A stretch of DNA of 64,000 bases from Crossaster papposus (taxonomy: Eukaryota > Echinodermata > Asteroidea > Velatida > Solasteridae), in contig JBAIAA010000414.1 in the NCBI GenBank assembly GCA_037893245.1, forward strand, positions 310,001-374,000, read 5' to 3'. Both the position numbers and the translations under genes were made by a program. The notes beneath the pieces were generated by a model. That model did not search any database and had not been told where the DNA came from. It saw nothing but the letters and a program-made list of their open reading frames with translations. Positions 3,514 through 53,999 of the stretch are shown here, in pieces; within the stretch, counting starts at the first letter, position 1; each line of letters begins with the position of its first letter.

Positions 3514-4370
3514 CAAATGGGTCAACTCATACCCAAGTCAACGCGTACCCCAAATTTTACACCCAAGTCAAGTCGTACCCAAGTCAAGTCGTACCCAAGT
3601 CAAGTCGTACCCAAGTCAAGTCGTAACTGATTCAACTCGTACACGAGTCAGCTCGTACGAGTTGACCCAAAGTCGACCCATGTCAACTCGTACCCCAATT
3701 TTTACACCCAAGTCAAGTCGTGCCCAAGTCAAGTCGTACCCGATTCAACTCAAACACGAGTCAGCTCGTACGAGTTGACCCAAAGTCGACCCATGTCAAC
3801 TCGTACCCAAGTCAACTCGTACCCCAAATTTTACACCCAAGTCAAGTCGTGCCCAAGTCAAGTCGTGCCCAAGTCAAGTCGTGCCCAAGTCAAGTCGTAC
3901 CCTAGTCAGCTCGTGTTCGAGTCGGCTCGTGTTCGAGTCAACTCGTACCCTAGTGCATACACGACGGTACCCGCGCGCATGAAGACGTTGAAGAGGTAGC
4001 GTCATTTTAGCGCAGTGACAGACGAGTTGACTCGGGCACAATTTTTTCTCAAATTATCAGTTTAAAGAGATATTCCTTACGAAACATTCCTAGCCAATTG
4101 CATTTAAAGAACTTCACAAAGTCGCGAATAGCGATAGCCATCCAGTGAAAAAGAAACATACATCAAATTTATTTAGAATATGTTGAGAAAATATTACTAT
4201 GGTAAAAAGAAAATTCAATTAACGGGAGGGGAGTACGACTTGACTCGGGTACGACTTGACTCGGATTTGACTTGACTCGGGTTTGACTTGACTCGGGTAC
4301 GAGTTGACTCGGGTACGAGTTGACCCGGGTACGATGATCTTGAGTTGACCCAAAGTCTCTCTGGCCTTCG
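3514..4370. mobile_element. Foldback element with terminal arrays of a 16-bp repeat (older copy 1)
   Basis: The left arm (about 3514-3960) is an array of a degenerate 16-bp unit, GTACCCAAGTCAAGTC and variants. The right arm (about 4230-4365) holds the same motif inverted, as in GGGTACGAGTTGACTC. The spacer between them has no gene. The arrangement is a foldback with tandem-repeat inverted termini. A sister copy with the same order lies at 49219-50530, and a younger relative with unit GGGACGACTCGTACCC fills 42347-46466. No transposase is seen, so mobilisation would need an enzyme from elsewhere. Confidence 0.65.
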
Positions 4371-6483: not shown

Positions 6484-7069
6484 ATTGAGTCACAAGTCGC
6501 CAAAGCTACTTTTGAGTAATTAGTCCAGGCAAAATACATAATTTTGTTTTGTTGACCTCAAACAAATTGCAACAAATTGTTTTACACCACAGTGCACTTC
6601 TATAAGGTCCCTAGAATGACATACTAAAAATCTACAAAAATCCAAGTGGTGGAAATATGTCTAATTTGCATAAATCGTTAATCCCTGCCGTGTAATATGT
6701 TTATTCCCATATTTGGGTATATATTTTATTTTAATTTTTTGAAAAGTTTATTTTGGTGATTCTACTTACATATCCTTACTTGAATAAAATTTTCTAAAGC
6801 ATATAAGTGACTGAATAATTATGAGAACACAGTAATTATCCAAAAAGACAACTTTGTGACCCTATAAATGTGCGCACATTACACTGTCTCCAGATATCAT
6901 CATGTAGTCAGTATTGGTAAGCTTCAAATTCACCAAGTTGCTTACTGGCACAGTTATCCTATTAAAACCTTATGGAAAATCATATGGACAATGATAACAT
7001 TGTGATATTTAGCCCAGCAAACAAAAACTTGGAAAAAATGATGTGTCCCTAAATTGGGCTAACAAGTAG
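6484..7069. other. AT-rich intergenic stretch, nothing recognised
   Basis: The first ~40 bp match the 3' flank of zinc-finger gene 2. Beyond that I see no coding frame, RNA gene or repeat. Confidence 0.5.
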
Positions 7070-10487: not shown

Positions 10488-12178
10488 TCAGCGGATATCA
10501 TCTGTCAGAACAATATGCCTCTGTGCTAAAAAAGCGCAAAGTTCACAAACAACAGACATCAACCAGCGTGGGTGCCTGTAAACCTCTTCCACGGCCCTGT
10601 AGGTCTTGAAGTAGCTGATGACATGTTCTACGTGGATTCTGCATGTGCTGTGTTCCCGATTGAAAACAGTCATAGCCAAACGTTCCCCAACATTGTCCAC
10701 CTGTCTCATCTGGTCTGCTCTATACTTCGTCATTATTGGCCACCGGTTGGCATAACCGTTGTCACCCAGGAAGAAAGTCTCTTCAGGGAAGTCAAGTTCC
10801 TGACCCGGTCCTATTGTAGGAAGAATGGTGTATGCACTCGCATCATTGAGGTGCCCAGGAATTCCAGTATGAACGTACCGTATCTGCCTATTGTTGTCGA
10901 TGATTATTTGTAACGAAACCGATATAATCGTATAAAAGGAAGATGCACAATGCACTGCATTCAGAAATATGCTATTACAATTCAAATTCAACAACAATTT
11001 CATATTTCGCTTCCAGGTTCATCGATGGTTCATTGATAAACGATGACGATGCCCTGGTTAAATAAGAAATGTTTTTAAGTGCGGTGGTACGAATAATTTC
11101 ACGAGGTGACAGGTGGAATTTATGTATTATATTTATCACTGAATTAAATTATTTTTTCCCATTGCACAAACATTCATTATTGTTTCTGAAAAATCCTTGC
11201 CATCTGATTAGTCTATATGTTTGCAAATTTCATGAGCTCAAACCGGCCGCGCCGTGCATAATAATTATTAAATGTACACGATCAACGATCCACTAATCAT
11301 ATGACGGGGATTTCTTCAGGTGTTGTAGTATAATACATGATAAATAAACAATTGCATATATACATCTAAAATTGAACCGCTGACATTGATGATTCTTTGC
11401 TTCAGAAAGACTAATTGATAATTAGAATTATAACAATCATTACTTAAAGAATATTAACTGGGTATTCATACAGTGATAACAGCTATAACCACTGCGGTTC
11501 TGTTTAGGGTCGATGGATCTCGTGTAGTGTTCCGTCTATAATGCCAACTGCATTTGGAAAATGATACCATTTCCCCCTGATAGCAAGCCAGTCTGCCCGG
11601 GCGGGCCAAGAAACCTGTGACTTGAAGAAGTACCACAGGGCTGGTACAATAAGATATATGTCCCTTGATATAGCTGTAGGCGACATGTTAAATAATGTAG
11701 AGAGCATGTCGTATGTAGGATACTGTCTAAGCCAAATAAAAACCATCGTGATCCTGTTTCTGCAAAGATGACGATGTCTTCCTCCCGCACCGCCAGTTTC
11801 AAGAATGGGTTGTAGTTCATGTATGATGTTCATCATAGATTCCGGAGTTTCACCGGTTAGCCTGTAGAATCGTGGAGGATCAATTATAGTATCTTGGAAA
11901 AGTTCTCTGGGCTGCATAAATCCAGGTCCTTCAAAATACGGGAACAGACATGGATATAACCCTGGACGTGCTCCTGGTAAAGTCAGTATACACGAAGTCA
12001 GGAATAAAAGACAAATTCTTCCAAACGATTGCATAATAAAATCAATTTCCTCGTTGCCAAAATATTCCATAGGCGGGATTAAGAGAAGTAGGAAATAATT
12101 GTGAATTGTGTACAAAAACATCAAAGCAACGTGTGGATCCATGTCCGTGATCACTTGGTTCAAAACTTGGATTGACAA
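10488..12178 (-). pseudogene. PIF/Harbinger (HARBI1-like) DDE transposase, two exons, decayed
   Basis: Exon 1 (12178 to about 11458) has a helix-turn-helix region (ITMVFIWLRQYPTYDMLSTL) and the first catalytic Asp in VGIIDGTLHEIHRP. A one-base shift near 11513 moves it into another frame that ends with the family-typical CMNTQ. Exon 2 (10907 to 10488) continues with IDNNRQIRYVHTGIPGHLND, the second Asp in FFLGDNGYANRWP and the Glu in RIHVEHVISYFK. The predicted intron is 10908-11457. The expected splice sites are damaged: the base sequence is CAG-TT in place of CAG-GT, and the acceptor ends AA in place of AG. The catalytic triad survives, but the frameshift and lost splice sites make a working protein unlikely. 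Confidence 0.8.
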
Positions 12179-12269
12179 ACCAAGGGCGACTTCATCACTC
12201 GGCTTTTAGCGTGGCGATCTTGTCCCTGTACCTATATATACACATACGAAACTATTGTTACCTGACACA

Positions 12270-14893: not shown

Positions 14894-15460
14894 AATGACA
14901 ACATCATGGTGTACTACCTGCGCCGAAATAATGTACAGTTGAGACGGCGGGTTAGGGATGTCATAAATCGAGATATCCACAGGTAAGTTCTTTTGTTGAC
15001 TTTGTGCTTTCTAATTTCATACCGTCCCGTATGCTTTTAAAGAGTGAATCAAACCACCAATTCAATTTTAGGGGCCATAATTAGGCCAATTAATTCTGTC
15101 CCGGGTTGGCCTTCAATTATTAATCTATTTGCCCGTCTGGTATATGACTAGTGATTTTAAGTAATATTTGTGATTCAGTCTATAATATGCACAATGCAAT
15201 CAATTTTTCAGGCTTCAAGATCAAAGAGTGGCAGACATGCGATATGCCGCGAGAGGCAATCCTGCAGAACGCCGACAGAGGATACTTGAACACCAAGCAC
15301 CTCAAGAACATGCCCAAGAACTAGGTCCGGTACTAGGTCTAGGACAAGCCCAGAGACCAGTTGGCGCTCCAGCAAATATCGTCCCGGTACCAGCCCCAGC
15401 GCTATGATGGGAACCAGCCCCGGCACCAGTCCCGCCGGCGCCGGGGCCGGTGCCGGAGCC

Positions 15461-16132
15461 GGCACCGGCCCCGGCACCGGCCCCGGCACCGGCCCCGGCA
15501 CCGGCCCCGGCACCGGCCCCGGCACCGGCCCCGGCACCGGCCCCGGCACCGGCCCCGGCACCGGCCCCGGCACCGGCCCCGGCACCGGCCCCGGCACCGG
15601 CCCCGGCACCGGCCCCGGCACCGGCCCCGGCACCGGCCCCGGCACCGGCCCCGGCACCGGCCCCGGCACCGGCCCCGGCACCGGCCCCGGCACCGGCCCC
15701 GGCACCGGCCCCGGCACCGGCCCCGGCACCGGCCCCGGCACCGGCCCCGGCACCGGCCCCGGCACCGGCCCCGGCACCGGCCCCGGCACCGGCCCCGGCA
15801 CCGGCCCCGGCACCGGCCCCGGCACCGGCCCCGGCACCGGCCCCGGCACCGGCCCCGGCACCGGCCCCGGCACCGGCCCCGGCACCGGCCCCGGCACCGG
15901 CCCCGGCACCGGCCCCGGCACCGGCCCCGGCACCGGCCCCGGCACCGGCCCCGGCACCGGCCCCGGCACCGGCCCCGGCACCGGCCCCGGCACCGGCCCC
16001 GGCACCGGCCCCGGCACCGGCCCCGGCACCGGCCCCGGCACCGGCCCCGGCACCGGCCCCGGCACCGGCCCCGGCACCGGCCCCGGCACCGGCCCCGGCA
16101 CCGGCCCCGGCACCGGCCCCGGCACCGGCCCC
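15461..16132. repeat. GC-rich 12-bp minisatellite, 56 perfect units (GGCACCGGCCCC)
   Basis: The unit GGCACCGGCCCC repeats 56 times with no visible change over 672 bp, then decays into related CAGGCACCAGCCCC-type units to about 16392. Since 12 is a multiple of 3 and no unit holds a stop, all six frames stay open; only the frame giving alternating Ala-Pro joins coding on both sides. Confidence 0.95.
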
Positions 16133-16808
16133 GAGACGGGCACCAGGACGGGCACAAGGACGGGCACCAGCCCCGGCACCAGGACGGGCACCAGCCCCGG
16201 CACCAGGACGGGCACCAGCCCCGGCACCCGGACAGGCACCAGTCCCGGCACCGAGATGGGCACCAGCCCCGGCCCCAGGGCAGGCACCAGCCTCGGCCCC
16301 AGGGCAGGCACCAGCCCCGGCCCCAGGGCAGGCACCAGCCCCGGCCCCAGGGCAGGCACCAGCCCCGGCACCAGGATGGGCACCAGCCCCGGAATATGTA
16401 GGCCAAGCACCTGCTGCCCATGCTGCCCATGGACGGATTCCTATTCCTAGAGGCCTGCATGGACGACAACCACTCCATGAAATTGTCAGAGACAGCCACA
16501 CGGGATTTCTAAATTATGTTAATAATACTTTGCCCAGGCTAACCACTGAATTTGTATATAGTATGGAGTTATTTCAAAATTATATGTTAAACTTAGTTGC
16601 GGACGAAAACGGAGGGCACCAGGATCAGCAGCAAATGCTGCAAGGTCAGCTGGAAGATGAATAAATGTTTATTTGCGAAAAGGAAAACGTGTATTTTAAA
16701 GTAACATTTTTGTCATTGTTGTTGTAGTTTCATTGTAGAAGATAATAAAATGACAAATTCCCAACAGCGCTTTTTTTCCCATGCAAAAACCATCCTTCTG
16801 GGAGTAAT

Positions 16809-26168: not shown

Positions 26169-26646
26169 AGGGCGCTTTAGTAACGAGACGGTACGCACAA
26201 GGAGACGGTAACGCGAGCGAAAAAAACAAACTCCGCATGCGCCAACCTGAAATCTCTCCGTCCCGTTGATTTTCGGAACGGTACTCGGCCAACATAGCGT
26301 TCGTTCCCTAAACACGACGTAAGAGAGAGAGAGCTGAAAATCAGGATTGCTCGGAGCATTCAAATCATACAAAAGCATGAATTCTTCATCATCCAAAATG
26401 TCAAGAACATATGCACAGACAACTGTCTCTCTGACTTCGTGAAGATTCGCCATGATTGTTGAGATCATGACTAAATTTAAACGATAGCGCGCGCGCGGGA
26501 ATTGGATACGGACTTTGCGTCCCCGTCGCCTTTAGCACCACAGCGAAAGCGCTTAAATATCACGACGGTAACAAGAGTGCGGGACCCGTCACAGTTGGTT
26601 AAACACTCCGTCTCCTGTGCGTACCGTCTCGTTACTAAAGCGCCCT
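26169..26646. mobile_element. MITE with ends AGGGCGCTTTAGTAACGAGA, carrying a transposase-like first exon
   Basis: The ends AGGGCGCTTTAGTAACGAGA and TCTCGTTACTAAAGCGCCCT are perfectly inverted. Copy 2 of the host unit (about 36372) lacks the insertion; AAAT on both sides may be the target duplication. On the minus strand, MANLHEVRETVVCAYVLDIL followed by DDEEFMLLYDLNAPSNPDFQ looks like the acidic N-terminus found in some PIF/Harbinger-type transposases, which would make this an internally deleted derivative. That homology is from memory and moderate. Confidence 0.7.
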
Positions 26647-27617
26647 AAATGCATATGCCGACGGTATTTCACGTCGTCATTGCGGGGTATTGGGATAAGT
26701 TTTCAACAGGCAATAATCGCACCTCGGTTAGGCCTCATTGGTTACGATATCGCCTCTGCGCAAAGATAAGTCGTTCAAATCGGGCGAGGTCATAAGACAT
26801 TCGACATGCCACAGTAAGTTCACAGTTATGGAGTGGTCTCTATACGTTTGATACGTTTTGCATCAGCCGGTACGCATGCGCGTGTCTACTCATGTGGAAC
26901 GATATGACTACTGAACCATTGAAAGATTATATAGTAAATAAAATCACGGAGATCAAAAATACTCCTCAGTCCTCGCATATGCAAACTTGTTAGCGCATCC
27001 TCCAGATAAAGCAACCGACAGGCGCGGTTTTACAGCCTGTGCTAGAGTAGAGCTTTACCCCCCCCCCCCCCCCCCCTTAATGCAATACAAAGTACATTCT
27101 GGAAAATGCGTATACTGGACCTGCGAAAGTTAGAAGCTGACGTCACGTGCGAAGGGTTTAGCCCCCCTAACACCACTATCACACTGGGCATCTGACCACG
27201 TTACCAACTTCCCGATCCAAAAAAATGAAAATCGTGGTACAAATCGTGGTACAAATCATGTAGAACGTGGTGGGACCATGATAATTATTAAAAACGGGAA
27301 TGGTCGTAGTATGATCTGGAAGATCGAGGCAATCCGGGTGTCGTTTCCACTGGCTTCTGCCACACCGAACTATAGTTCTCAAAACGTCCTGCCCCGTTCT
27401 AAACCAATTGTAAAACGGGCTGTACGGGGGGTAGAACGTGTAACTTTGGCCAAATAATGTCATAAATACGATGCTACTTCGTTCCGAAACAGTCCTCAGT
27501 ATGTCCATCTCGTCTTTAACCCGTTCGCAGTCCGTTGGTATCCAGTCCAGATCGGGTAAAATTGCCCTCTCACCTAAGCATGATAACCTAAACAGTGCAG
27601 TGATAGCGACTGCAGTA
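26647..27617. repeat. Tandem 2.8-kb unit, copy 1, third segment
   Basis: This segment aligns with 36372-36640 and then 39221-39925, including a poly-C tract. A minus-strand frame (27508 to 27180; FGQSYTFYPPYSPFYN) has a similar counterpart at 39774-39526, but the two diverge by frameshifts, and I do not recognise a protein. Confidence 0.75.
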
Positions 27618-35520: not shown

Positions 35521-36640
35521 GGCTGTATTGACCCTAGGACTCTCGGCTTTATTGACCCTATAGGACTCAGTAATTAGGATCCTCGGCTTTATTGACCCTA
35601 GGATCCTCAGCTTTATTGACCCTAGGACCCTCGGCTTTATTGACCCTAGGACTCAGTACTTGAATTCTCTATCTAAAATCATCCCCAACCTACTCATCAC
35701 TCCTCTCTATCAATACGGCTGATCTATTTGATGCGTGGCTTTATTTACCCTATAGGACTCTCGACTTTATTTCGCGCGCGCTGTGTACACTGTACTTCGT
35801 ATTCGTGCTTAAGTCTCCTTTCAAGAGTGGAATTGCCAGTGTTACGACAAGAAACCATTCGCTGCGGTGTAACAAAAATACGCTGCATATCTGGCGATAA
35901 TTAAGGGCTCCCTCAATAAGCCTGGATAGCGGACGGCGCGCCAGCTCGGTTTTTGAGCAAGACTACGATAAACCATGTGAGCAGTACTTCGTAGAAACCT
36001 CTGGCCGTTGGCTATCCTCTCATGTACGTTTCCCCGGCTCCTCCTAATTAGCCAAGTAATTAAGCTAAATTGTTTCGCTCTTTCAACTTGGTGGATGCTT
36101 AGATGAGATAAGGTACTCGCTCATTTGATAAAAGTTGAGGAACTATAGGCCACCGTGACGTGAGTGGGTTTGCTCAATCAAAGAGGCGTATCTGCTACTT
36201 CTGTTAGAAATATTAAATTTATTAAGGTTTCTGTAGAATATGAAAAAGAAAGAGGAAAAAATAATGTAGAAAATGACGGGTACCATAATTGATATGTTGC
36301 TTATGTATAGGTTTATGTCGTTTTCTTTCTACTTTTCGTTTTAATTTGTTTAGGTCCCCGTAGAGACCGTCAAAAATTGCATATGCCAACGGTATTTCCC
36401 GTCGTCATTGCGGGGTATTGGGATAAGTTTTCAACTAGCAATAATCGCACCTCGGTTATGCCTCATTGGTTACGATATCGCCTCTGCGCAAAGATAACTC
36501 GTTCAAATCGGGCGAGGTCATAAGACATTCGACATGCCACAGGAGGTTCACAGTAGTGGTCTCTACGTTTGATACGTTTTGCATCAACGTCTACGCATGC
36601 GCGTGTCTACTCATGTGGAACGATATGACTACTGAACCAT
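35521..36640. repeat. Tandem 2.8-kb unit, copy 2, second segment
   Basis: This segment aligns with 8030-8436, 9083-9544, 26141-26168 and 26647-26918, so it provides uninterrupted versions of three insertion sites in copy 1. Confidence 0.8.
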
Positions 36641-41339: not shown

Positions 41340-41860
41340 GAGAAGAACGATGGCAACGTGAACGTTGGAGGACAAGGAGACCGTGATGAGGAAGGAGATG
41401 TTTGTGTCGGATTAACGTCTGATTTATGGTCATGAACAATAAGCCCAGTTTGGCTCATTAACTAGTGTATTAACTTTCAAATGTTTGCAACATTCGACAT
41501 TATGATCCAGCATACAAATTACAACGAATCATCAATATATGCAACTAATTGTAATCCCTTGTCTCTGAGGGCAGAGAATAGGTTTCATGACCTTGGTGAA
41601 TACACTTAGAGCTGAAGCAAGCCCATTAGGGAGGCATGCGAATTGATAGACATAGTCGTTCGTAATCAATTGGCACTAATAAGTATCACGAATATCAATA
41701 GATGCCAGCAGTTTTGTTCGGCTGTATCTGACTGCAAAGTTTCCATCTGAAAACGATGGTATTTTACATGCTTATTTAAAGTCTTTAAATTCAGTATCAT
41801 TTCATGACCCATCTTTCTTTGGACGCAAAACTTATATTTGATATAAATTCTCCATTCCAA
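41340..41860 (-). pseudogene. DIRS-like retroelement reverse transcriptase fragment
   Basis: On the minus strand one reads LNLKTLNKHVKYHRFQMETL, then (after a small break) YQFACLPNGLASALSVFTKV, then LRDKGLQLVAYIDDSL, which holds the YIDD catalytic motif. This order and wording fit DIRS-type (and some Gypsy-type) reverse transcriptases. Frames break around 41655 and 41590, and coding then fades, so it is a relic. The part 41652-41860 is copied at 43770-43978. Confidence 0.65.
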
Positions 41861-42346
41861 TGGCTGTTTTAGCTAGATCGGTATTGCATCCTTCTCAGAT
41901 CTTCTTTGGCTCCTATTATGGTTTTGTTTTTATTGGTTGAAATACAATTGTCATTCATATCAAATTGAAAATGACAAGATGTTAATTTAGTTGTGTGTGT
42001 GTGTGTTTTGTTGTGTTCGTTATTAGTGTCACATAACATCCCATCGCGTGCGATATTCGTGGGCATCATGTGCGCTCGCAATCGAATCGCACGATCTCCA
42101 ACAAAACGAGCAAAATCCACGTGCTCCCAGTGATGACGCCCTCTATCAAAAGAGGGCGCTAACAAAATAAGTAATTTGGCAACCAAAAAATGGCAGAATA
42201 CGCACGTGAACCATGGTAAGTCGTCCCGGGTACGAGTTGTCCCACATCCCCTGTTTACCCACGAAATTAAATATTATAGTCTGTAGTTTAAACAAGCATA
42301 AATGTCATGAAACTTGTCTTCATTCTACAAACTTGTCCAAACGGAT

Positions 42347-42743
42347 GTGGGACGACTCGTACCCGGGACGACTCGTACCCGGGACGACTCGTACCCGGGA
42401 CGACTCGTACCCGGGACGACTCGTACCCGGGACGACTCGTACCCGGGACGACTCGTACCCGGGACGACTCGTACCCGGGACGACTCGTACCCGGGACGAC
42501 TCGTACCCGGGACGACTCGTACCCGGGACGACTCGTACCCGGGACGACTCGTACCCGGGACGACTCGTACCCGGGACGACTCGTACCCGGGACGACTCGT
42601 ACCCGGGACGACTCGTACCCGGGACGACTCGTACCCGGGACGACTCGTACCCGGGACGACTCGTACCCAAAATTTGTTACCCGGGACAACTCGTACCCAG
42701 GACAACTCGTACCCAGGACAACTCGTACCCGGGACGACTCGTA
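42347..42743. repeat. Array 1 of 16-bp unit GGGACGACTCGTACCC
   Basis: About 20 perfect units, then a variant tail containing AAAATTTGTTACCC and units with CAACTC. The variant tail is mirrored at the start of array 4. Confidence 0.95.
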
Positions 42744-42794
42744 CCTTGTACTTTTCTTACCATGTACTTTCCTGTTTCTTTTATTTAGATGTAA

Positions 42795-43067
42795 TTGACA
42801 AATCAGAAGATGTGGAAAATTAAAGTCGTTCAGTTTTTGGAAATTGCCAGTGGTGACAATCATACAAGCAGGAGATTGTTCTGGAGAGATTCTGGCAGCT
42901 GGCCGATGATCGCGGAGTTTGCCGAATTCAGAAGGAGCTATAGCAATCATGAGCTTCGTAACTTATTTGACTGCTTCATTAAAATTATAAAAATGTTATA
43001 TATGTCACCTTCTACATTTTGTATGACATTAAAGTTCTGGGCGGAGTTTGCTCGTAAACTTATTTGA
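42795..43067 (+). other. Open frame of unknown meaning in segment B (mirrored at 45649-45921)
   Basis: The frame reads TNQKMWKIKVVQFLEIASGD onward for about 90 residues. No domain is recognised and the two copies are the same by duplication, so conservation gives no evidence of coding. Confidence 0.15.
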
Positions 43068-43317
43068 TCTTTTTGTTTAACAGTAGTTTCAGACACGCAT
43101 ATTACATTGTGTTACGTCTAGAACACATCATTAAATGCGTGTTTGGATATTTCATTTTACGTACCTCGCCAAGACACGCGTTTTTTCTTACTTGTTAACC
43201 CGTGTTTGAAACATAGTACTGGGTACCGATTCATTATAAAATGTTACATAATTATGTCACCAAGCTACAGTTGTTATGACATTAGAGTTTCTGAAACGGA
43301 ATTAAACAAACAAAATT

Positions 43318-43502
43318 ATCTTCAGGCCAACGATAGGCCTAAGCTTCTTTAAAAGAAGCTTAGGCCTATCGTTGGCCTGAAGATAGATTTTTGACGATTA
43401 AGAATGAAACTTTTTTATTTCAGTTTTAGATTTAAAAGAGAAAAGTTTTCTCTTTTAAATCTAAAACTGAAATAAAAAAGTTTCATTCTTAATCGTCAAA
43501 AA
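43318..43502. repeat. Two adjacent long perfect hairpins
   Basis: Hairpin 1 (43318-43385) has stems over CAGGCCAACGATAGGCCTAA. Hairpin 2 (43387-43502) has ~57-bp stems over TTTTTGACGATTAAGAATGA. Both are mirrored at 45208-45400. Confidence 0.9.
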
Positions 43503-43675
43503 TCTCTAGTAGTAATCAAACCATTAACAATTTCTATCTTTGAAATAGTAATTGGTTAGCATAATAATAGGTTGAAAATAAGTACGATAACGTTTGGCAC
43601 AAGTATTAAGTAAGGCACAATAAGGGGTTGATTTACGAGTATACGCTGCACATACAGTGTTTAATTTTCCAGCCG

Positions 43676-43769
43676 TGTACGAGTCGTCCCGGGTACGAGT
43701 CGTCCCGGGTACGAGTCGTCCCGGGTACGAGTCGTCCCGGGTACGAGTCGTCCCGGGTACGAGTCGTCC
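43676..43769. repeat. Array 2 of the 16-bp unit, reverse orientation
   Basis: About six units of GGGTACGAGTCGTCCC, truncated at 43769 where the A copy begins mid-sequence. Confidence 0.9.
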
Positions 43770-44464
43770 ATAGTCGTTCGTAATCAATTGGCACTAATAA
43801 GTATCACGAATATCAATAGATGCCAGCAGTTTTGTTCGGCTGTATCTGACTGCAAAGTTTCCATCTGAAAACGATGGTATTTTACATGCTTATTTAAAGT
43901 CTTTAAATTCAGTATCATTTCATGACCCATCTTTCTTTGGACGCAAAACTTATATTTGATATAAATTCTCCATTCCAATGGCTGTTTTAGCTAGATCGGT
44001 ATTGCATCCTTCTCAGATCTTCTTTGGCTCCTATTATGGTTTTGTTTTTATTGGTTGAAATACAATTATCATTCATATCAAATTGAAAATGACAAGATGT
44101 TAATTTAGTTGTGTGTGTGTGTGTTTTGTTGTGTTCGTTATTAGTGTCACATAACATCCCATCGCGTGCGATATTCGTGGGCATCATGTGCGCTCGCAAT
44201 CGAATCGCACGATCTCCAACAAAACGAGCAAAATCCACGTGCTCCCAGTGATGACGCCCTCTATCAAAAGAGGGCGCTAACAAAATAAGTAATTTGGCAA
44301 CCAAAAAATGGCAGAATACGCACGTGAACCATGGTAAGTCGTCCCGGGTACGAGTTGTCCCACATCCCCTGTTTACCCACGAAATTAAATATTATAGTCT
44401 GTAGTTTAAACAAGCATAAATGTCATGAAACTTGTCTTCATTCTACAAACTTGTCCAAACGGAT
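43770..44464. repeat. Direct copy of 41652-42346
   Basis: An offset of 2118 bp with almost no differences, including the truncated DIRS-like fragment on the minus strand. Confidence 0.9.
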
Positions 44465-45047
44465 GTGGGACGACTCGTACCCGGGACGACTCGTACCCGG
44501 GACGACTCGTACCCGGGACGACTCGTACCCGGGACGACTCGTACCCGGGACGACTCGTACCCGGGACGACTCGTACCCGGGACGACTCGTACCCGGGACG
44601 ACTCGTACCCGGGACGACTCGTACCCGGGACGACTCGTACCCGGGACGACTCGTACCCGGGACGACTCGTACCCGGGACGACTCGTACCCGGGACGACTC
44701 GTACCCGGGACGACTCGTACCCGGGACGACTCGTACCCGGGACGACTCGTACCCGGGACGACTCGTACCCGGGACGACTCGTACCCGGGACGACTCGTAC
44801 CCGGGACGACTCGTACCCGGGACGACTCGTACCCGGGACGACTCGTACCCGGGACGACTCGTACCCGGGACGACTCGTACCCGGGACGACTCGTACCCGG
44901 GACGACTCGTACCCGGGACGACTCGTACCCGGGACGACTCGTACCCGGGACGACTCGTACCCGGGACGACTCGTACCCGGGACGACTCGTACCCGGGACG
45001 ACTCGTACCCGGGACGACTCGTACCCGGGACGACTCGTACACGGCTG
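44465..45047. repeat. Array 3 of the 16-bp unit, forward orientation
   Basis: About 36 perfect units of GGGACGACTCGTACCC, ending in CACGGCTGG, the complement of the sequence before array 2. Confidence 0.95.
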
Positions 45048-45207
45048 GAAAATTAAACACTGTATGTGCAGCGTATACTCGTAAATCAACCCCTTATGTG
45101 CCTTACTTAATACTTGTGCCAAACGTTATCGTACTTATTTTCAACCTATTATTATGCTAACCAATTACTATTTCAAAGATAGAAATTGTTAATGGTTTGA
45201 TTACTAC

Positions 45208-45400
45208 TAGAGATTTTTGACGATTAAGAATGAAACTTTTTTATTTCAGTTTTAGATTTAAAAGAGAAAACTTTTCTCTTTTAAATCTAAAACTGAAATA
45301 AAAAAGTTTCATTCTTAATCGTCAAAAATCTATCTTCAGGCCAACGATAGGCCTAAGCTTCTTTTAAAGAAGCTTAGGCCTATCGTTGGCCTGAAGATAA
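45208..45400. repeat. Mirrored copy of the two long hairpins
   Basis: Same hairpins as 43318-43502 in opposite order. Confidence 0.9.
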
Positions 45401-45969
45401 TTTTGTTTGTTTAATTCCGTTTCAGAAACTCTAATGTCATAACAACTGTAGCTTGGTGACATAATTATGTAACATTTTATAATGAATCGGTACCCAGTAC
45501 TATGTTTCAAACACGGGTTAACAAGTAAGAAAAAACGCGTGTCTTGGCGAGGTACGTAAAATGAAATATCCAAACACGCATTTAATGATGTGTTCTAGAC
45601 GTAACACAATGTAATATGCGTGTCTGAAACTACTGTTAAACAAAAAGATCAAATAAGTTTACGAGCAAACTCCGCCCAGAACTTTAATGTCATACAAAAT
45701 GTAGAAGGTGACATATATAACATTTTTATAATTTTAATGAAGCAGTCAAATAAGTTACGAAGCTCATGATTGCTATAGCTCCTTCTGAATTCGGCAAACT
45801 CCGCGATCATCGGCCAGCTGCCAGAATCTCTCCAGAACAATCTCCTGCTTGTATGATTGTCACCACTGGCAATTTCCAAAAACTGAACGACTTTAATTTT
45901 CCACATCTTCTGATTTGTCAATTACATCTAAATAAAAGAAACAGGAAAGTACATGGTAAGAAAAGTACA

Positions 45970-46466
45970 AGGTACGAGTCGTCCCGGGTACGAGTTGTCC
46001 TGGGTACGAGTTGTCCTGGGTACGAGTTGTCCCGGGTAACAAATTTTGGGTACGAGTCGTCCCGGGTACGAGTCGTCCCGGGTACGAGTCGTCCCGGGTA
46101 CGAGTCGTCCCGGGTACGAGTCGTCCCGGGTACGAGTCGTCCCGGGTACGAGTCGTCCCGGGTACGAGTCGTCCCGGGTACGAGTCGTCCCGGGTACGAG
46201 TCGTCCCGGGTACGAGTCGTCCCGGGTACGAGTCGTCCCGGGTACGAGTCGTCCCGGGTACGAGTCGTCCCGGGTACGAGTCGTCCCGGGTACGAGTCGT
46301 CCCGGGTACGAGTCGTCCCGGGTACGAGTCGTCCCGGGTACGAGTCGTCCCGGGTACGAGTCGTCCCGGGTACGAGTCGTCCCGGGTACGAGTCGTCCCG
46401 GGTACGAGTCGTCCCGGGTACGAGTCGTCCCGGGTACGAGTCGTCCCGGGTACGAGTCGTCCCGAT
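45970..46466. repeat. Array 4 of the 16-bp unit, reverse orientation
   Basis: A variant start (mirroring the tail of array 1) then about 26 units of GGGTACGAGTCGTCCC, ending next to the zinc-finger remnant. Confidence 0.95.
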
Positions 46467-46581
46467 ACCATGTTGACTATCCACTCCATCCACAAAAATT
46501 GTTCACGCAGAGTATGGACACCAGGCTCAACTGCTAAGCGTCAACAGATGACCTATACCAATGAGAAACCGTACCCATGCG

Positions 46582-47386
46582 TAGTCCGAGTAACTTGGAC
46601 CCCCAAATCACCTTTTTCAACATTTGGACATGGTCGGGTGATCATTAGGGTCCAAGCAAACCCGGTTGGACTCGTTGTACGAAATGTCTGCACATCGATC
46701 CCCCATGACCTCCCACACTTTTCCCAAAAAATGTCACTTAAAACGGCCACTTACAAAAATGCTGCTTGTCCCCAGTAGGCACTAAGGATCAATGAAGACT
46801 ATCGGTGTGTTCTTACCTTTCCAAAAAGTGAGAAAATCAGGCCTCAAAATGTGGAGCAATGTTCGCCGATTCAAATGCACGTAGCCATTGTTGAGCAAAC
46901 TCATGACGTCATTCTTGTTGACAACGTCGCGCGCAGAGCGCGCAACTCCGGTCGCATAGTCAGCGGCTGTTACCTGTTTCGTGCACTGTGCTGTAGTGGA
47001 CCATGCACCCATCCATGCGTGCGACGTTGTTGTCAACAAGAATGACGTCATGAGTTTGCTCAACAATGGCTACGTGCATTTGAATCGGCGAACATTAATT
47101 GCTCCACATTTTGAGGCCTGATTTTCTCACTTTTTGGAAAGGTAAGAACACACCGATAGTGTTAGTGTCTTCATTGATCCTTAGTGCCTACTGGGAACTA
47201 GTAGCAGCATTTTTCTAAGCGTTTTAAGTGACATTTTTGGGGAAAAGTGTGGGAGCTAGGTCATGGGGGATCGATGTGCAGAGATTTCGTACAACGAGTC
47301 CAACCGGGTTTGCTTGGACCCTAATATCACCCGACCATGTCCAAATGTTGAAAAAGGCGATTTTTGGGTCCAAGTTACTCGGACTA
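46582..47386. mobile_element. 805-bp foldback element, ends TAGTCCGAGTAACTTGGAC, 9-bp duplication ACCCATGCG
   Basis: The left end TAGTCCGAGTAACTTGGAC is exactly inverted at the right end. The arms extend about 350 bp, almost to a short centre near 46940-47010. ACCCATGCG is present at 46573-46581 and 47387-47395, inside a finger codon run. There is no transposase. Nine-base duplications occur with Mutator-like elements and with Drosophila foldback elements. Confidence 0.9.
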
Positions 47387-47445: not shown

Positions 47446-47717
47446 GGCCCAATTTCATAGAGCTGCTAAAGCACACGATTTTCTGCTAACCGAGCCTCCG
47501 TCTATTTCATGGAGACCGTAAGCAGTAAGCACAGCAAAAGGCACGCTTAACCTAGCGGAAAAATTTGCTTAAAACAGTGACGTAACAATAGAATCTCCAT
47601 GCGCGCGCAAACGTTAGCACAAAAAAGCCGTGAAATAGCGCTTAAGGTTAGCAAATTTTTCTGCTAAAGTTAGCACGAAAATTTGCTTACCGTTAAGCAG
47701 CTCTATGAAATTGGGCC
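47446..47717. mobile_element. 272-bp MITE, ends GGCCCAATTTCATAGAGCTG, 3-bp duplication CAG
   Basis: The ends GGCCCAATTTCATAGAGCTG and CAGCTCTATGAAATTGGGCC are perfectly inverted. CAG lies on both sides (47443-47445, 47718-47720) within a finger. A 3-bp duplication and G-rich ends would fit a PIF/Harbinger-type MITE. The interior repeats GCTAA and TTTGCTTA motifs. Confidence 0.85.
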
Positions 47718-47749
47718 CAGATGATCATGACCCACACCAATGAGAAACC

Positions 47750-49176
47750 TAGTCCGAGTTACTGGACTCTAGTTATCGCTTTTTTAACATTTGGACATCA
47801 TCTGGCGCTACTAGATAGAGTCCGAGGTCGGGCGATATGCATCAGTGAGAATGTCTTAAATGTGATTCAAAAAGTCGCCGAAATCCACACAAATACCTAA
47901 CCAAATACCTTAAAATCACCTAAATATCCTTCCATGTGTGTCCAAGTACGTCGGGGTGGTTTTCGGGGGTACTCACGATCAATTATTTGCTTGCAAATCA
48001 AGGAAATTCGACTCAGTATTCGAGCGACTGCTGCACAGTTGCTGTTCACGTTCGGGAGAGAATATGGACGTGCGCGCGCATCATGTCAGTGACGTAACAG
48101 GTCAAAGTGTATCGACCGGTGGTAAACAACAAGCGGGCGGCGCAGCGACTGTTTTATGTCATGGCACAAGCAGTACGGTGGCTGCGTGCTGATGAGGAGA
48201 CGCCAATCGCTCTCGGGCGGGGATAGCGCACAATGCTTATGACAATGCAAAATATTATGACAATGCAAAATAATAATGTTTATTATAATCATAACAAAAC
48301 AATAATAATAATTTTGGTTAAGTGAAGTGAAATGGTAAATTATAATGCCTTCCTAGATGCGGATCCGCGCGCGAGGGGCGCAACGGATGCTGCCGCAATT
48401 TATTGGCCTCTTTAGAAGAGAGTATTTTTAGGCTTTACGTTTCAAGAAAACAATTGCAAGAACCGTGCGTATATAATCTCCAGCACATATCTTTTCTTGT
48501 AACATGGTATGGAATGATGAAGCTGTGTAATTCAAATGCCCCCTAAAACAAACACGGTTTATCTTGACCGTATCTAGCGGCGGCGCATTATAATTTACCG
48601 TTTCACTTCACTTAACCGAAATTATTATTATTGTTTTGTTATGATTATAATAAACATTATTATTTTGCATTGTCATACTCCTCGCGATTGCAAACATTGT
48701 GCGCTATCCCCGCCCGAGAGCGATTGGTGTCTCCTCATCAGCACGCAGCCACCGTACAGCTTGTGCCACGACATAAAACAGTCGCTGCGCCGCGCGCTTG
48801 TTGTTTACCACCGGTCGATACACTTTGACCTGTTACGTCACTGACATGATGCGCGCGCACGTCCATATTCTCCCCCGAACGTGAACAGCAACTGTGCAGC
48901 AGTCGCTCGAATACTGGGTCAAATTTCCTTGATTTGCAAGCAAATAATTGATCGTGAGTAACCCCGAAAACCACCCCGACGTACTTGGACACACATGGAA
49001 GGATATTTAGGTGATTTTAAGGTATTTGGTTAGGTATTTGTGTGGATTTCGGCGACTTTTTGAATCACATTTAAGACATTCTCACTGATGCATATCGCCC
49101 GACCTCGGACTCTAGTAGCGCCAGATGATGTCCAAATGTTAAAAAAGCGATAACTAGAGTCCAGTAACTCGGACTA
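47750..49176. mobile_element. 1.43-kb foldback element, ends TAGTCCGAGTTACTGGACTC, 9-bp duplication TGAGAAACC
   Basis: The ends TAGTCCGAGTTACTGGACTC are perfectly inverted, with arms near 600 bp on each side of a centre at about 48345-48590. TGAGAAACC at 47741-47749 recurs at 49177-49185. End sequence and duplication length match the 46582 element, but the interiors differ. Confidence 0.9.
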
Positions 49177-49699
49177 TGAGAAACCGTACGCATGCAACAT
49201 CTGTGGAAAATCGTGGAAATGAGTCAACTCGTACCCAAGTCAACGCGTACCCCAAATTGTACACCCAAGTCAAGTCATACCCAAGTCAAGTCGTACCCAA
49301 GTCAAGTCGTACCCAAGTCAAGTCGTACCCAAGTCAAGTCGTACCCGATTCAACTCGTACACGAGTCAGCTCGTACGAGTTGACCCAAAGTCGACCCGAG
49401 TCAACTCGTCCCCGAGTCAACTCGTCCCCGAGTCAGCTCGTACCCGAGTCAGCTCGTGTTCGAGTCAGCTCGTGTTCGAGTCAACTCGTACCCTAGTGCA
49501 TACACGACGGTACCCGCGCGCGTGAAGACGTTGAAGAGGTAGCGTCATTTTAGCGAAGTGACAGACGAGTTGACTCTGGCACAATTTGTTCTCAAAATAT
49601 AAGTTTAAGGGAATGAAAATCATACAACAAAATCAATAGTATTTAAATCAGGTACTTTTGTGTATAGGATTGTTGTCTTCAGATTTGATCTATAATAAC

Positions 49700-49749
49700 G
49701 GCTCTTTTCAGAGCCAACCAGATTAAAACAACCGGTTCTTTTCAGAACC
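49700..49749 (+). promoter_or_regulatory. Two histone-mRNA-type 3' stem-loops in tandem
   Basis: GGCTCTTTTCAGAGCC (49700-49715), preceded by AAC and followed by AACC, is the form of the metazoan replication-dependent histone 3' stem-loop. A second, GGTTCTTTTCAGAACC, is at 49734-49749. No histone coding sequence lies upstream in the window, so these may be a retrocopied histone 3' end or a coincidental repeat in a transposon. Confidence 0.5.
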
Positions 49750-50014
49750 AACCCATTCACAAAAGAGATTTGATCCACGTGTGCAGTATTGTAAAGAAAA
49801 CCAACTTCAACAACTTTCTTGTCTAAATATTCTTGGTCAATGGTAAAACACGGAGTTTGCAGTAATTCATGCATCAAATACCTAAAAATCTAAAAACAAA
49901 ATATCATTCTTAATTTTTCGACAATAATTACAAATCATTAATATGAAATCGATCAAAAAAATTCAATAACAACTATACCATTCCTAATTTTTTCGATAAT
50001 ACAAATTATCGGTT

Positions 50015-50291
50015 CTTTCCTCGCCTTCCACCACTATGACCCGGGTTCGAACCCCGCCTGGGCCAATATGTGGATTGGGTTTTCAGTCCCTGCCTGACTT
50101 CGTGGGTTTTCCCCAGGATATTCTTCTGGGGTTTTCTTCCCACCTCTAAAACTGTACCTTCTTCTCATTGTCTTCTCTCTACTGAGGGCCCCAAATAACC
50201 AGCTTCTGCTGGATGGGTTACCCTCCGTTGCGTTAATGCCAGAATTGGTTACTGCAACGTACTCATACAGATACAGATACAGATTTATTGA
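50015..50291 (+). mobile_element. SINE-like element with pol III B box and CAGATA tail
   Basis: A B-box-like GGGTTCGAACCCCG at about 50043 is followed by a conserved-looking body (GTGGGTTTTCCCCAGGATAT, GGGGTTTTCTTCCCACC) and an end of repeated CAGATA. The A box is weak. Head, body and simple tail order supports a tRNA-derived SINE. Confidence 0.6.
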
Positions 50292-50530
50292 AGAGATATT
50301 CCTTACGAAACATTCCTAGCCAATTGCATTTAAAGAAGTTCAGAAAGTTGCGAATAGCGATAGCCATCCAGTGAAAAAGAAACTTACATCAAATTTATTT
50401 AGAAAATATTACTATGGTAAAAAGAAAATTCAATTAACGGGAGGGTAGTACGACTTGACTCGGGAACGACATAACTCGGGTGCGACTTGACTCGGGTACG
50501 AGTTGACCCGGGTACGACGAGTTGACCCAA

Positions 50531-50975: not shown

Positions 50976-51220
50976 GATGGGTCGAGCGGTGGGACAGGGT
51001 CGAGCGGTTTGACAACTAAGTACCCCTTAAAAAATTACCCCTAATTACGCCGCTGAATGTACTGTGTATTCAAAGAACAGGGCGTGACGACACCTATTTT
51101 TTAGTAGAAAATTTTACTTTTTGCTGCTTTTTATCTTTGTACATTTTGAAGAGTCGGATGTAGACGAGACTGCTAGTTTGGAGGATACAGCAAATAAGAC
51201 ACGGCCAAATCATTGCCGAA

Positions 51221-53999
51221 ATGAGTCCTAGTTTTACATGTAAAATGCACATCAAGGAGAAAGGGCACTCATGCGACATCTGCAGCACAACCTTCACATT
51301 GAAATCTAACCTCAAGCGACATCAAATATCCCACAGCAATGAGAAACCGTACACATGCGATATTTGTGGAAATTCGTTCCTGCAGAATGGAGACCTCAGG
51401 CGTCACCAGATGACCCACACCAATGAGAAATCGTACACATGTGACATCTGTGGAAAATCGTTCAGGCTGAATGGAGACCGTAAACGACACAGGATGACCC
51501 ACACCAATGAGAAACCGTACACATGCGACATCTGTGAAAAATCTTTCAATCAGAGTAGAACCCTCAAGCAACACCAGATGACCCACACTAATGAGAAACC
51601 GTACACATGCGACATCTGTGAAAAATCTTTCAATCAGAGTAGAAACCTCAAGCAACACAAGATGACCCACACTAATGAGAAACCGTACACATGCGACATC
51701 TGTGGGAAAATCATTCACGCACAATAGAGACCTCAAGCGACACCAGATGACCCACACCAATGAGAAACCGTACGCATGCAACATCTGTGGAAAATCTTTC
51801 AATCAGAGTAGAACCCTCAAACGACACCAGATGACCCACACCAATGAGAAACCGTACGCATGCGACATCTGTGGAAAATCATTCGCGCACAATGGAAACC
51901 TCAACCAACACCAGATGACCCACACCAATGAGAAACCGTACGCATGCGACATCTGTGGAAAATCATTCACGCACAATGGAAACCTCAAGCAACACCAGAT
52001 GACCCACACCAATGAGAAACCGTACACATGCGACATCTGTGGAAAATCGTTTGCGTGGAGTGGAACCCTCAAACGACACCAGATGACCCACACCAATGAG
52101 AAACCGTACACATGCGACATCTGTGAAAAATCTTTCAATCGGAGTAGAAACCTCAAGCAACACCAGATGACCCACTCTAATGAGAAACCTTATGCATGCG
52201 ACATCTGTGGAAAATCGTTCAGGCAGAGTGGAACTCTCAAACGACACCAGATGACCCACACCAATGATAAACCGTACACATGCGACATCTGTGGAAAATC
52301 GTTCACGCACAATGGACACCTCAAGCGACACCAGATGACCCACACTAATGAGAAACCGTACACATGCGACATCTGTGGAAAATCGTTCACGCACAATGGA
52401 AACCTCAAGCAACACCAGATGACCCACACCAATGAGAAACCGTACACATGCGACATCTGTGGAAAATCGTTTGCGTGGAGTGGAACCCTCAAACGACACC
52501 AGATGACCCACACCAATGAGAAACCGTACGCATGCGACATCTGTGAAAAATCGTTCAATCGGAGTGAAACCCTCAAACATCACCAGATGGCCCACAACAA
52601 TGAGAAACCGTACGCATGCGACATCTGTGGAAAATCATTCACGCACAATGGAAACCTCAAGCAACACCAGATGACCCACACTAATGAGAAACCGTACACA
52701 TGCGACATCTGTGGAAAATCGTTTGCGTGGAGTGGAACCCTCAAACGACACCAGATGACCCACACCAATGAGAAACCGTACACATGCGACATCTGTGAAA
52801 AATCTTTCAATCGGAGTAGAAACCTCAAGCAACACCAGATGACCCACTCTAATGAGAAACCTTATGCATGCGACATCTGTGGAAAATCGTTCAGGCAGAG
52901 TGGAACTCTCAAACGACACCAGATGACCCACACCAATGAGAAACCGTACACATGCGATATCTGTGGAAAATCATTCGCGCACAATGGAAACCTCAAGCAA
53001 CACCAGATGACCCACACCAATGAGAAACCGTACACATGCGACATCTGTGGAAAATCATTAACGCACAATGGAGACCTCAAGCGACACCAGATGACCCACA
53101 CCAATGATAAACCGTACACATGCGACATCTGTGGAAAATCGTTCACGCACAATGGACACCTCAAGCGACACCAGATGACCCACACTAATGAGAAACCGTA
53201 CACATGCGACATCTGTGGAAAATCGTTCACGCACAATGGAAACCTCAAGCAACACCAGATGACCCACACCAATGAGAAACCGTACACGTGCAACATCTGT
53301 GGAAAATCGTTTGCACATAATGGAAACCTCAAGCGACACCATATTATGACGCACACCAATGGGAAACCGTACACATGCGACATCTGTGGAAAATCGTTCA
53401 CGCAGAATGGAGACCTCAAACGACACCAGATGACCCACACCAATGAGAAACCTTACGCATGCGACATCTGTGGAAAATCATTTGCGTGGAGTGGAACCCT
53501 CAAACGACACCAGATGACCCACACCAATGAGAAACCGTACGCATGCGACATCTGTGAAAAATTGTTCAATCGGAGTGAAACCCTCAAACATCACCAGATG
53601 ACCCACACTATTGAGAAATCCTACACATACGACATCTGTGAAAAATCGTTTGCACATAATGGAAACCTCAAGCGACATCATATTATGACCCACACCGATG
53701 AGAAACTGTACACATGCGACATCTGTGGAAAATCGTTCATGCAGAATGGAGACCTCAAACTACACCAGATGACCCACACCAATGAGAAACCTTATGCATG
53801 CGACATCTGTGGAAAATCATTCACGCACAATGGAAACCTCAAGCAACACCAGATGACCCACACTAATGAGAAACCGTACGCATGCGACATCTGTGGAAAA
53901 TCGGTCAGTCGCAGCAACTACCTGAAAAACCACAAGATGGACCACACCGACAGCGACGAGAGAGAGATAGATAATTTTGTGATCAAACCCAACAAATAA
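51221..53999 (+). CDS. C2H2 zinc-finger protein, 32 fingers, with a one-base frameshift (gene 2)
   Basis: A probable DNA-binding nuclear protein, paralogous to the gene at 4893. It has an ATG at 51221 and an N-terminus MSPSFTCKMHIKEKGHSCDI leading into a divergent first finger. I count 32 fingers of 28 residues. In finger 6 an extra G (TGTGGG in place of TGTGG, 51701-51706) shifts the frame and ends it at 51727; the array then continues open in the other frame to 53999. Finger 29 lacks its first Cys (YTYDIC), and fingers 25 and 29 have one extra residue before the last His. The tail DEREIDNFVIKPNK matches gene 1. The frameshift is either a real null allele, which would leave five fingers and part of a sixth, or a sequencing error. 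Confidence 0.85.

Follow-up and report, generated by a model that had tools for sequence, protein, structure and literature searches.

The 16-bp tandem arrays of the window, a 64,000-nucleotide stretch of Crossaster papposus DNA, are the termini of a foldback element that very probably represents a family of cut-and-paste DNA transposons within the Mutator (MULE) superfamily; coding copies of the family carry a predicted 584-aa transposase. The element is bounded by two unlike 6-bp ends, GAATGT and GATACC, with inverted arrays of GGGACRACTCGTACCC inside each. The family is new, but its kind, Mutator-type foldback transposons, has already been described. That the arrays are element termini had been proposed in the initial annotation, and this holds: they are dispersed, have defined flank boundaries, are accompanied by target duplications and occur in transposase-coding copies.

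Within the window, four arrays of GGGACGACTCGTACCC were found in the order +, −, +, −, as annotated, and the three longest match their unit at 95–99% (Table 1). We observed 85 exact matches to the 16-mer (55 on the + strand and 30 on the − strand), and 105 when up to three mismatches were allowed, a few of them inside the older arrays discussed below; at this tolerance, the shuffled window (n = 100) yielded 0.18 expected matches, with a maximum of 3. Two additional short inverted array pieces lie at ~42220–42243 and ~44338–44361.

The search for the unit was extended to the whole genome (1.02 Gb), where the exact 16-mer occurs 1,209 times (reversed-pattern control, 0) in arrays spread over many contigs and with defined flank boundaries. 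Junctions between an array and GRATGT (55) or GGTATC (71) were detected, and none in the controls. Forty-two of the 55 GRATGT ends face an opposite-strand GGTATC end within 12 kb, a count that includes the window's own two left ends, which have one partner between them; the other 13 have no partner within that distance, and outside the window no facing pair joins like with like. From the 31 loci that were fetched, 21 elements with both ends were recovered, and alignment of their flanks revealed exact target-site duplications in 14, with a length of 8 bp in ten of these and 9 bp in the other four; none of 420 mismatched pairings reached 7 bp. Two more elements, L035 and L036, have duplications whose halves differ at a single base, and the remaining five (L020, L023, L032, L034 and L039), among them the two fully read copies that code for transposase (L034 and L039), have no matching duplication. 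The arms contain 3–50 units (20 elements; the 122-bp L020 was left out), a number that may change by slippage or unequal exchange, and most copies are far shorter than the full length of 4.0–4.2 kb. A 21-mer, GGGACGACTCGTACCCGGGAC, had no matches in viral contigs, a result that is uninformative for an animal genome.

The autonomous copy that the initial annotation proposed to look for has a counterpart in a few full-length copies that carry a predicted transposase gene. In three of them (4.0–4.2 kb), exon 1 is identical at the protein level. L034 and L039, which are 99.1% identical over 4 kb, encode the same intact predicted 584-aa protein, split by a predicted 289-bp GT-AG intron; the third, at C582, was assigned from matches, with the identical exon 1 (358/358 aa) inside a 4,054-bp end-to-end pair. 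No exon-1 match was found in two other full-length end-to-end pairs, C661 and C1070 (4.1–4.2 kb). The joined two-exon protein matches the MULE domain PF10551 at residues 308–405 (30.6 bits, cut-off 27.6), and the exons taken separately give no Pfam match to this domain at E ≤ 0.1. A PHD finger (PF00628) scores around its Pfam cut-off of 24.0, with 24.1 bits for exon 1 of L034, 23.9 for L039 and 23.0 for the joined protein, and neither FLYWCH nor THAP matched the 584-aa protein at E ≤ 1. Genome-wide, at least 137 pieces match exon 1; the full-length ones are mostly 50–60% identical, and several have open frames. A catalytic domain of MULE type thus lies in a gene between the ends, the duplications of 8 or 9 bp fall within the 8–11 bp of MULEs, and the long terminal inverted repeats consist of short tandem repeats in variable number, as in foldback elements. 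The transposase of the full-length copies probably moves the array-ended elements.

Table 1. Features of the arrays and of the insertion locus (positions in the window)
Feature	Positions	Strand	Remarks
Older diverged array pair, GAGTCAACTCGTACCC-type unit	3514..4340	.	Copy 1 of duplicated segment
Left flank of insertion	41653..42342	+	Outside the transposon
Window copy 1	42343..43769	+	Interior in opposite orientation to that of copy 2; only 6 units left in the truncated second arm; without GATACC end
Array 1	42349..42745	+	24.9 copies, 95% match
Inner domain B, copy 1	42747..43672	+	Matches both inner ends of L039, middle deleted
Perfect palindrome	43317..43385	.	34-bp arms, 1-base centre
Second perfect palindrome	43385..43505	.	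60-bp arms, 1-base centre; abuts the first
Array 2	43673..43769	-	6.1 copies; truncated arm, abuts repeated flank segment directly
Second flank copy	43770..44460	+	From tandem duplication of flank and element
Window copy 2	44461..46469	-	2,009 bp: GGATGT left end, + array, inner domain, − array, GATACC right end
Array 3	44467..45044	+	36.1 copies, 99% match; GAATGT-type arm
Inner domain B, copy 2	45043..45970	-	Inverted relative to copy 1
Array 4	45971..46464	-	31.0 copies, 96% match; GATACC-type arm
Terminal motif GATACC (GGTATC on − strand)	46464..46469	-	
Right half of target duplication, ATGTTGAC	46470..46477	.	
Older array pair	49219..50530	.	Copy 2 of duplicated segment; extra insertion between arms

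The interval 41652–46466 of the initial annotation is not one element. Position 41652 is no element boundary; a flank segment begins there that recurs at 43770 and also forms the left flank elsewhere (contig C279), and the interval appears to consist of a tandem duplication of flank and element with one copy flipped. Window copy 2 is the same insertion as a simple one in L036, on C279. In the C279 copy, the left half of the target duplication is GTGTTGAC, with one mismatch relative to ATGTTGAC, and the window copy is not flanked by an intact target duplication. Judged from the alignments, the paralogous locus C279 appears to keep the simple insertion, and the window locus (C414) to carry the duplicated and partly flipped form. 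Array 1 is read as a flipped GATACC-type arm, because L010 and window copy 2 both have this arm at the edge of the inner domain where array 1 is located. Positions 9–541 and 534–926 of inner domain B align with L039, which codes for the transposase, at its two inner ends, and the inner sequence is an internal-deletion derivative of that element, without the gene; such a copy would have been moved in trans. The two abutting palindromes are present in both window copies and, among the 21 fetched elements, only in L036. Compared with C279, the flank piece 42243–42326 has the opposite orientation (84 bp, 98.8%), and a short − array precedes it. Two candidates for further elements were discarded: GGATGT at 42249 (− strand), which comparison with L036 identified as inverted flank fused to array, and a 4,127-bp end pair at C414, which combines the window's first left end with the right end of copy 2. 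The locus adjoins a zinc-finger gene cluster. Pfam searches of seven window ORFs detected PIF/Harbinger-type domains in two and no match at E ≤ 0.001 in the other five; Rfam (gathering threshold) returned only two U4 snRNAs, and ARAGORN no tRNA.

The succession flank, element, flank, flipped element could be an artefact of assembly, for instance two haplotypes joined head to tail. The copies are almost identical: the flanks align over 714 columns with 2 mismatches, and since one of these and all 12 gap columns fall at the non-homologous left edge, a single internal mismatch is left in ~700 bp, while the ~1 kb inner domains differ by small gaps and no mismatches. Long perfect inverted repeats are, moreover, difficult to assemble. 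However, the arrays of the two copies are unequal in length (20 versus 35 and 4 versus 26 exact units), the interior is flipped between them, and the rearranged flank junction is common to both, so that an artefact appears somewhat unlikely. If the rearrangement is real, the inverted arrays may have driven it, through inversion of flank and array, inversion of the interior and tandem duplication.

The related 16-bp arrays that had been noted near 3514 and 49219 are present in inverted orientation (3521–3954/4233–4334 and 49221–49497/50448–50518), and the initial annotation took them, with the young arrays, for one family of two ages. The two sites align with each other past the arrays, which indicates a single segment present in duplicate and not two insertions. 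For the view that they are aged copies of the young family speak the 16-bp period, an AAATTT or similar variant unit found in both kinds of array, and the identity of one older unit with the young unit at 13 of 16 positions, a level that 5 of 20,000 shuffled versions of this older unit also attain (the other older consensus units reach 11–12 of 16). In contrast, unit and terminal motif differ, and the inner junctions of young and old arrays are no more similar than expected by chance (197 of 500 shuffles score at least as high). Moreover, an older-type array beside L019, whose right end was not found within the locus, adjoins a separate transposase, whose two exons share 57% and 65% identity with those of the young one. 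Because of this diverged transposase, the older arrays look like a sister family and not like an older age class, a status that is unlikely for them.

Regarding the source of the transposase, hAT and P elements also make 8-bp duplications, as are ten of the 14 exact ones here. A foldback element moved by one of these superfamilies, with their 7–8 bp duplications, would resemble Galileo, which PMC3573991 describes as a foldback-like member of the P superfamily. Nevertheless, the gene between the same ends encodes a MULE transposase, four duplications are of 9 bp, and visual inspection of the ORF lists for L009–L019 and for six long elements revealed no other transposase, which makes this origin highly improbable and favors the Mutator assignment. 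A local satellite growing and inverting in place, as the long, nearly pure window arrays and the variation from 3 to 50 units between arms might suggest, is practically negligible, since it is already refuted by the boundaries and the exact duplications in 14 of 21 elements, and the dispersal over many contigs, the fixed, unequal terminal motifs and the transposase inside the two full-length copies read also speak against it.

Drosophila FB, Galileo and the sea-urchin TU elements are of the same structural kind as the C. papposus family. In TU elements, tandem repeats of ~15 bp make up the outer domain of the terminal inverted repeats, and the duplications are 8 bp long. Rehavkus has been equated with MULE-NOF of the Drosophila FB-NOF element. 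The initial annotation recognized no described family with these ends, which was wrong: the family most resembles Tm1 by its ends and Rehavkus by its transposase. Tm1, a Mutator/Foldback element of root-knot nematodes, is described as having asymmetric 7-bp ends, a ~14-bp tandem unit, 8–10 bp duplications and a MULE transposase (PMC3169594). As in C. papposus (GAATGT/GATACC), its asymmetric short motifs lie outside the inverted repeat and are followed by a variable tandem array, and it has many MITE-like copies; its duplications are mostly of 9 bp. In contrast, the unit and end motifs differ, Tm1 arrays contain 1–9 units versus 3–50 here, and the Tm1 transposase carries a FLYWCH finger (Phantom type) instead of the PHD-like finger found here (PMC3169594). 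Rehavkus, whose hosts are given as arthropods and annelids, combines a MULE-like transposase and a PHD finger (marginal in our protein) with 9-bp duplications (the length of four of the 14 exact ones here), terminal repeats of 26–400 bp and, ahead of the 3′ terminal repeat, a minisatellite (PMC6446971). In C. papposus, the element has arrays at each end that serve as its terminal repeats, and 8 bp is the commonest duplication length. Galileo and Tetris likewise have long terminal repeats that contain tandem repeats (PMC3573991, PMC4079207). However, Galileo has a P-type THAP transposase and a 7-bp duplication, versus the MULE domain and 8–9 bp found here (PMC3573991), and the repeats of Tetris are of ~220 bp, with a transposase source not found in that account (PMC4079207).

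The THAP domain of the Galileo transposase is reported to bind several sites in its terminal repeats (PMC3688188, PMC3573991). By analogy with Galileo (PMC3688188), it is plausible that the transposase of C. papposus binds many sites in the arrays; each 16-bp unit would then be a binding site, and the array a multi-site landing pad. Copies of Galileo are also described as generating inversions and chimaeras (PMC3688188, PMC3573991, PMC4079207).

At least one other transposase branch adjoins its own 16-bp array, in which the core ACTCGTACCC is kept and the flanks are changed. A wider reading, which we consider doubtful, is that a broad PHD-type MULE lineage exists in which the arrays would bind transposase and co-evolve with their respective branches; the unequal 6-bp ends would enforce the pairing of one left with one right end, and the abutting palindromes with 1-base centres could be a scar left by a hairpin-capped break.

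Some array-ended foldback families, such as Tetris, are known without a transposase (PMC4079207). The genome of C. papposus combines short array-ended copies and their unequal ends with target duplications and with intact, nearly identical transposase genes, so that the proposal that the arrays are multiple transposase-binding sites becomes directly testable. In addition, C279 and C414 form a pair of a simple and a rearranged insertion, an example of a foldback element scrambling a locus.

The initial annotation had read these arrays as termini of a foldback family and proposed a genome search, an alignment of flanks and a look for target duplications and an autonomous copy, all of which were carried out. 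In the 1.02-Gb assembly (1,841 contigs), the exact 16-mer of the young family, a Mutator (MULE) foldback element, was found 1,209 times (739 forward, 470 reverse), and the reversed-pattern control gave 0. When the outer sides of the arrays were lined up across 31 fetched loci (11, then 20 more), sharp boundaries were observed: one end reads GAATGT followed directly by GGGACAACTCG, and the other GGTATC followed by that same unit (...GATACC on the opposite strand). Exact searches of the assembly, which miss variant ends such as the GAATGC of locus L019, returned 55 GRATGT-type and 71 GGTATC-type ends (four and one in the window, respectively; controls 0). Opposite 42 of the 55 GRATGT-type ends, a GGTATC-type end lies on the other strand within 12 kb, two of these pairs being the window's two left ends with one common right end; this search detected no like-with-like facing pair outside the window. 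The paired ends span 122 bp (1), 1.02-2.77 kb (32), 4.0-4.2 kb (6, one of them an artefact of the right end shared in the window) and 6.1-7.4 kb (3). Two like ends about 7 kb apart (L030:38-123 and 6891-7120) are co-oriented and have an identical adjacent 8-mer, TTCTTTAC, from which a tandem duplication is probable. Arms comprise 3 to 50 units in the 20 elements counted. The GACGACTC form dominates two of the longest (36/50 units in L036, 45/45 in L038) as well as the window arms, which suggests a recent expansion; however, it represents 9 of 29 units in the L035 arm, at odds with this reading.

Both ends were in view in 21 elements among the 31 loci, and exact target duplications flank 14 of them, of 8 bp in ten (L009, L010, L011, L019, L022, L024, L028, L029, L031 and L033) and of 9 bp in four (L025, L026, L027 and L038). 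The two halves differ by one base in L035 and L036, and no duplication was found in L020, L023, L032, L034 and L039. As a control, none of 420 left/right pairings across different elements reached 7 bp. Among the five elements without a duplication are L034 and L039, the two transposase-coding copies that were read from end to end; the five may be recombinants, by their likeness to chimaeric Galileo copies, whose flanks likewise do not match (PMC3573991). Between the arms of the L022 element (6.1 kb, both ends, exact duplication GTATAGAC), and not within them, we observed a long 15-bp tandem array (L022:889-2015, GTKRL frame).

The putative autonomous copies, L034 (contig C248; 4,006 bp end to end) and L039 (C354; 4,158 bp), are 99.1% identical and have different flanks. 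Each carries a minus-strand gene of two exons and a predicted 289-bp GT-AG intron, with an identical 584-aa product predicted to be a MULE protein. Pfam searches showed a MULE transposase domain at residues 308-405 (30.6 bits vs a cut-off of 27.6) and a PHD finger right at the threshold. The MULE match crosses the splice point at residue 358, and no such domain was detected in the separately searched exons at E <= 0.1. We take WYLDGTFK, VVDFESG and NDVEGWHRR, by the general MULE pattern, to hold the candidate catalytic residues. Exon 1 has at least 137 matching pieces in the genome (114 of 597 candidates scored). Among the matches scored, those in C248, C354 and C582 are 100% identical over 358 aa, all within 4.0-4.2 kb end-to-end pairs; the pairs of this size in C661 and C1070 showed no exon-1 match among the candidates scored. 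Because the next-best full-length matches scored are 52-59% identical, several of them without stops, we conclude that the genome holds a broad lineage of such proteins. Pieces of a related transposase (53-58% identical) were also observed just outside young elements at four of their GATACC-type ends, about 130-160 bp from the end in C512, C963 and C539 and by an older-type array at L019. The pattern is what insertion of young elements into or beside older relatives would leave; the C512 and C963 sites may be duplicates of each other.

The sea-urchin TU elements are foldbacks of a comparable kind. As to whether any described family has these ends, a word-based literature search revealed no account of this sequence family; the kind of element is already known. 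Tm1 has the anatomy of the young family but a different transposase, described as Phantom/FLYWCH (PMC3169594). Rehavkus elements, reported from arthropods and annelids, are related to MULEs and have a minisatellite and a PHD finger (PMC6446971), and sea-urchin foldbacks are listed in the Tetris paper (PMC4079207). For the THAP domain of Galileo, several binding sites within the terminal repeats are described, and such repeats have been suggested as the source of specificity (PMC3688188).

The older arrays had been grouped with the young ones as one family of two ages, a grouping that we replace. Alignment of the 3514-4340 pair with the 49219-50530 pair extends across the arrays and past them, which indicates one duplicated segment. 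One older consensus unit matches the young unit at 13/16 positions (reached by 5 of 20,000 shuffles) and others at 11-12/16, and an AAATTT-like variant unit occurs in both young and older arrays. A GRGTTAACTCGTACCC-type array by L019, whose far end was looked for and not found, lies about 0.7 kb from a distinct related transposase (57% and 65% identical over two exons) that likely belongs to it. Our preferred reading is that the old and the young arrays represent sister families within a single lineage.

Long C2H2 zinc-finger arrays of 84-bp units are present at two related loci (4893-6482 and 51164-53999), with an older array pair upstream of both. A different foldback element (46582-47386; ends TAGTCCGAGTAACT, 86% self-complementary) interrupts a zinc-finger repeat and is flanked by a perfect duplication of 9 bp, ACCCATGCG; it is MULE-like by duplication length only. 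Its likely relative at 47750-49176 (ends TAGTCCGAGTTACT, ~0.6-kb arms 96% alike, duplication TGAGAAACC) is also within a zinc-finger repeat, and a palindromic MITE-like insert at about 47447-47720 (ends GGGCCCAATTTCATAGAGCTGCT) was placed by eye in another.

Features of the window and of related loci (window positions unless a contig or locus is named)
Feature	Position	Strand	Remarks
Array 1	42349-42745	+	
Array 2	43673-43769	-	
Array 3	44467-45044	+	
Array 4	45971-46464	-	
Two abutting perfect palindromes	43317-43505, mirrored in 45043-45970		arms 34 and 60 bp, single central base each
Transposase exons in L039	4413-5486 and 3443-4123	-	
GATACC-type ends with outside transposase pieces	C512:207830/207957, C963:259773/259901, C539:277745/277902, L019 (C95)		
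PIF/Harbinger-type transposase pieces	10488-12205	-	DDE_Tnp_4, HTH_Tnp_4
U4 snRNA, two full-length matches	26628-26767 and 36355-36495	-	
GC-rich 12-bp minisatellite ACCGGCCCCGGC	15413-16372		79 copies, several frames open

The four arrays, in forward-reverse-forward-reverse order, are present in the window as first described, and the young 16-mer has 105 matches there with up to 3 mismatches (0.18 expected). The interval 41652-46466 had been taken as a single element; self-comparison revealed more than one. A ~700-bp non-array segment from 41653 recurs at 43770 (714-column alignment, 2 mismatches, one of which lies with all the gaps in the non-homologous left edge), and block 42349-43769 is the reverse of 44948-46367 (1,421 bp, 0 mismatches, 1 gap). 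Inner domain B (42747-43672), the stretch between the arms, has two main blocks of similarity to L039: B 9-541 aligns with 3874-3277 of the element, and B 534-926 with 456-169, the latter broken up near the palindromes. It lacks the middle of L039, transposase included, and the window copy is a deletion derivative of a transposase-coding element.

Both palindromes also occur in L036, and none with arms of at least 25 bp was found in the other 20 of the 21 elements. Six elements, complete or partial, that were aligned here (L009, L010, L011, L017, L018 and L019) have one arm of each palindrome joined directly, S1 to T. The palindrome-bearing copies have the derived order S1, reverse S1, reverse T, T. 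As a candidate origin, a break between S1 and T that was capped by hairpins, later reopened far from their tips, would leave such a shape; alternatively, a double template switch could have produced it. The palindromes are older than the duplication in the window and the split between contigs C279 and C414, the latter containing the window.

On C279, L036 carries the same insertion as the window in a simple form: left flank, the 8-bp GTGTTGAC, GAATGT, an array of 50 units, the inner domain, an array of 7 units, GATACC, ATGTTGAC and right flank. The flanks of both loci are ~99% identical (left 99.3% over 1,155 bp, right 99.2% over 509 bp). Since this homology ends on either side and the window lacks 174 bp present in the right flank at C279, the two look like paralogous segments, not alleles. 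Compared with L036, a left-flank piece is inverted in both window copies, adjoining a short inverted array piece (L036 2683-2766 to window 42326-42243, 84 bp, 98.8%); flank and element are tandemly duplicated, a change for which an assembly artefact is a conceivable but rather unlikely source; and the interior of copy 1 is flipped. It follows that the flank inversion preceded the tandem duplication, because it is common to both copies. The inverted arrays of this family may drive such local rearrangements, which would accord with FB elements and with Galileo (PMC3573991).
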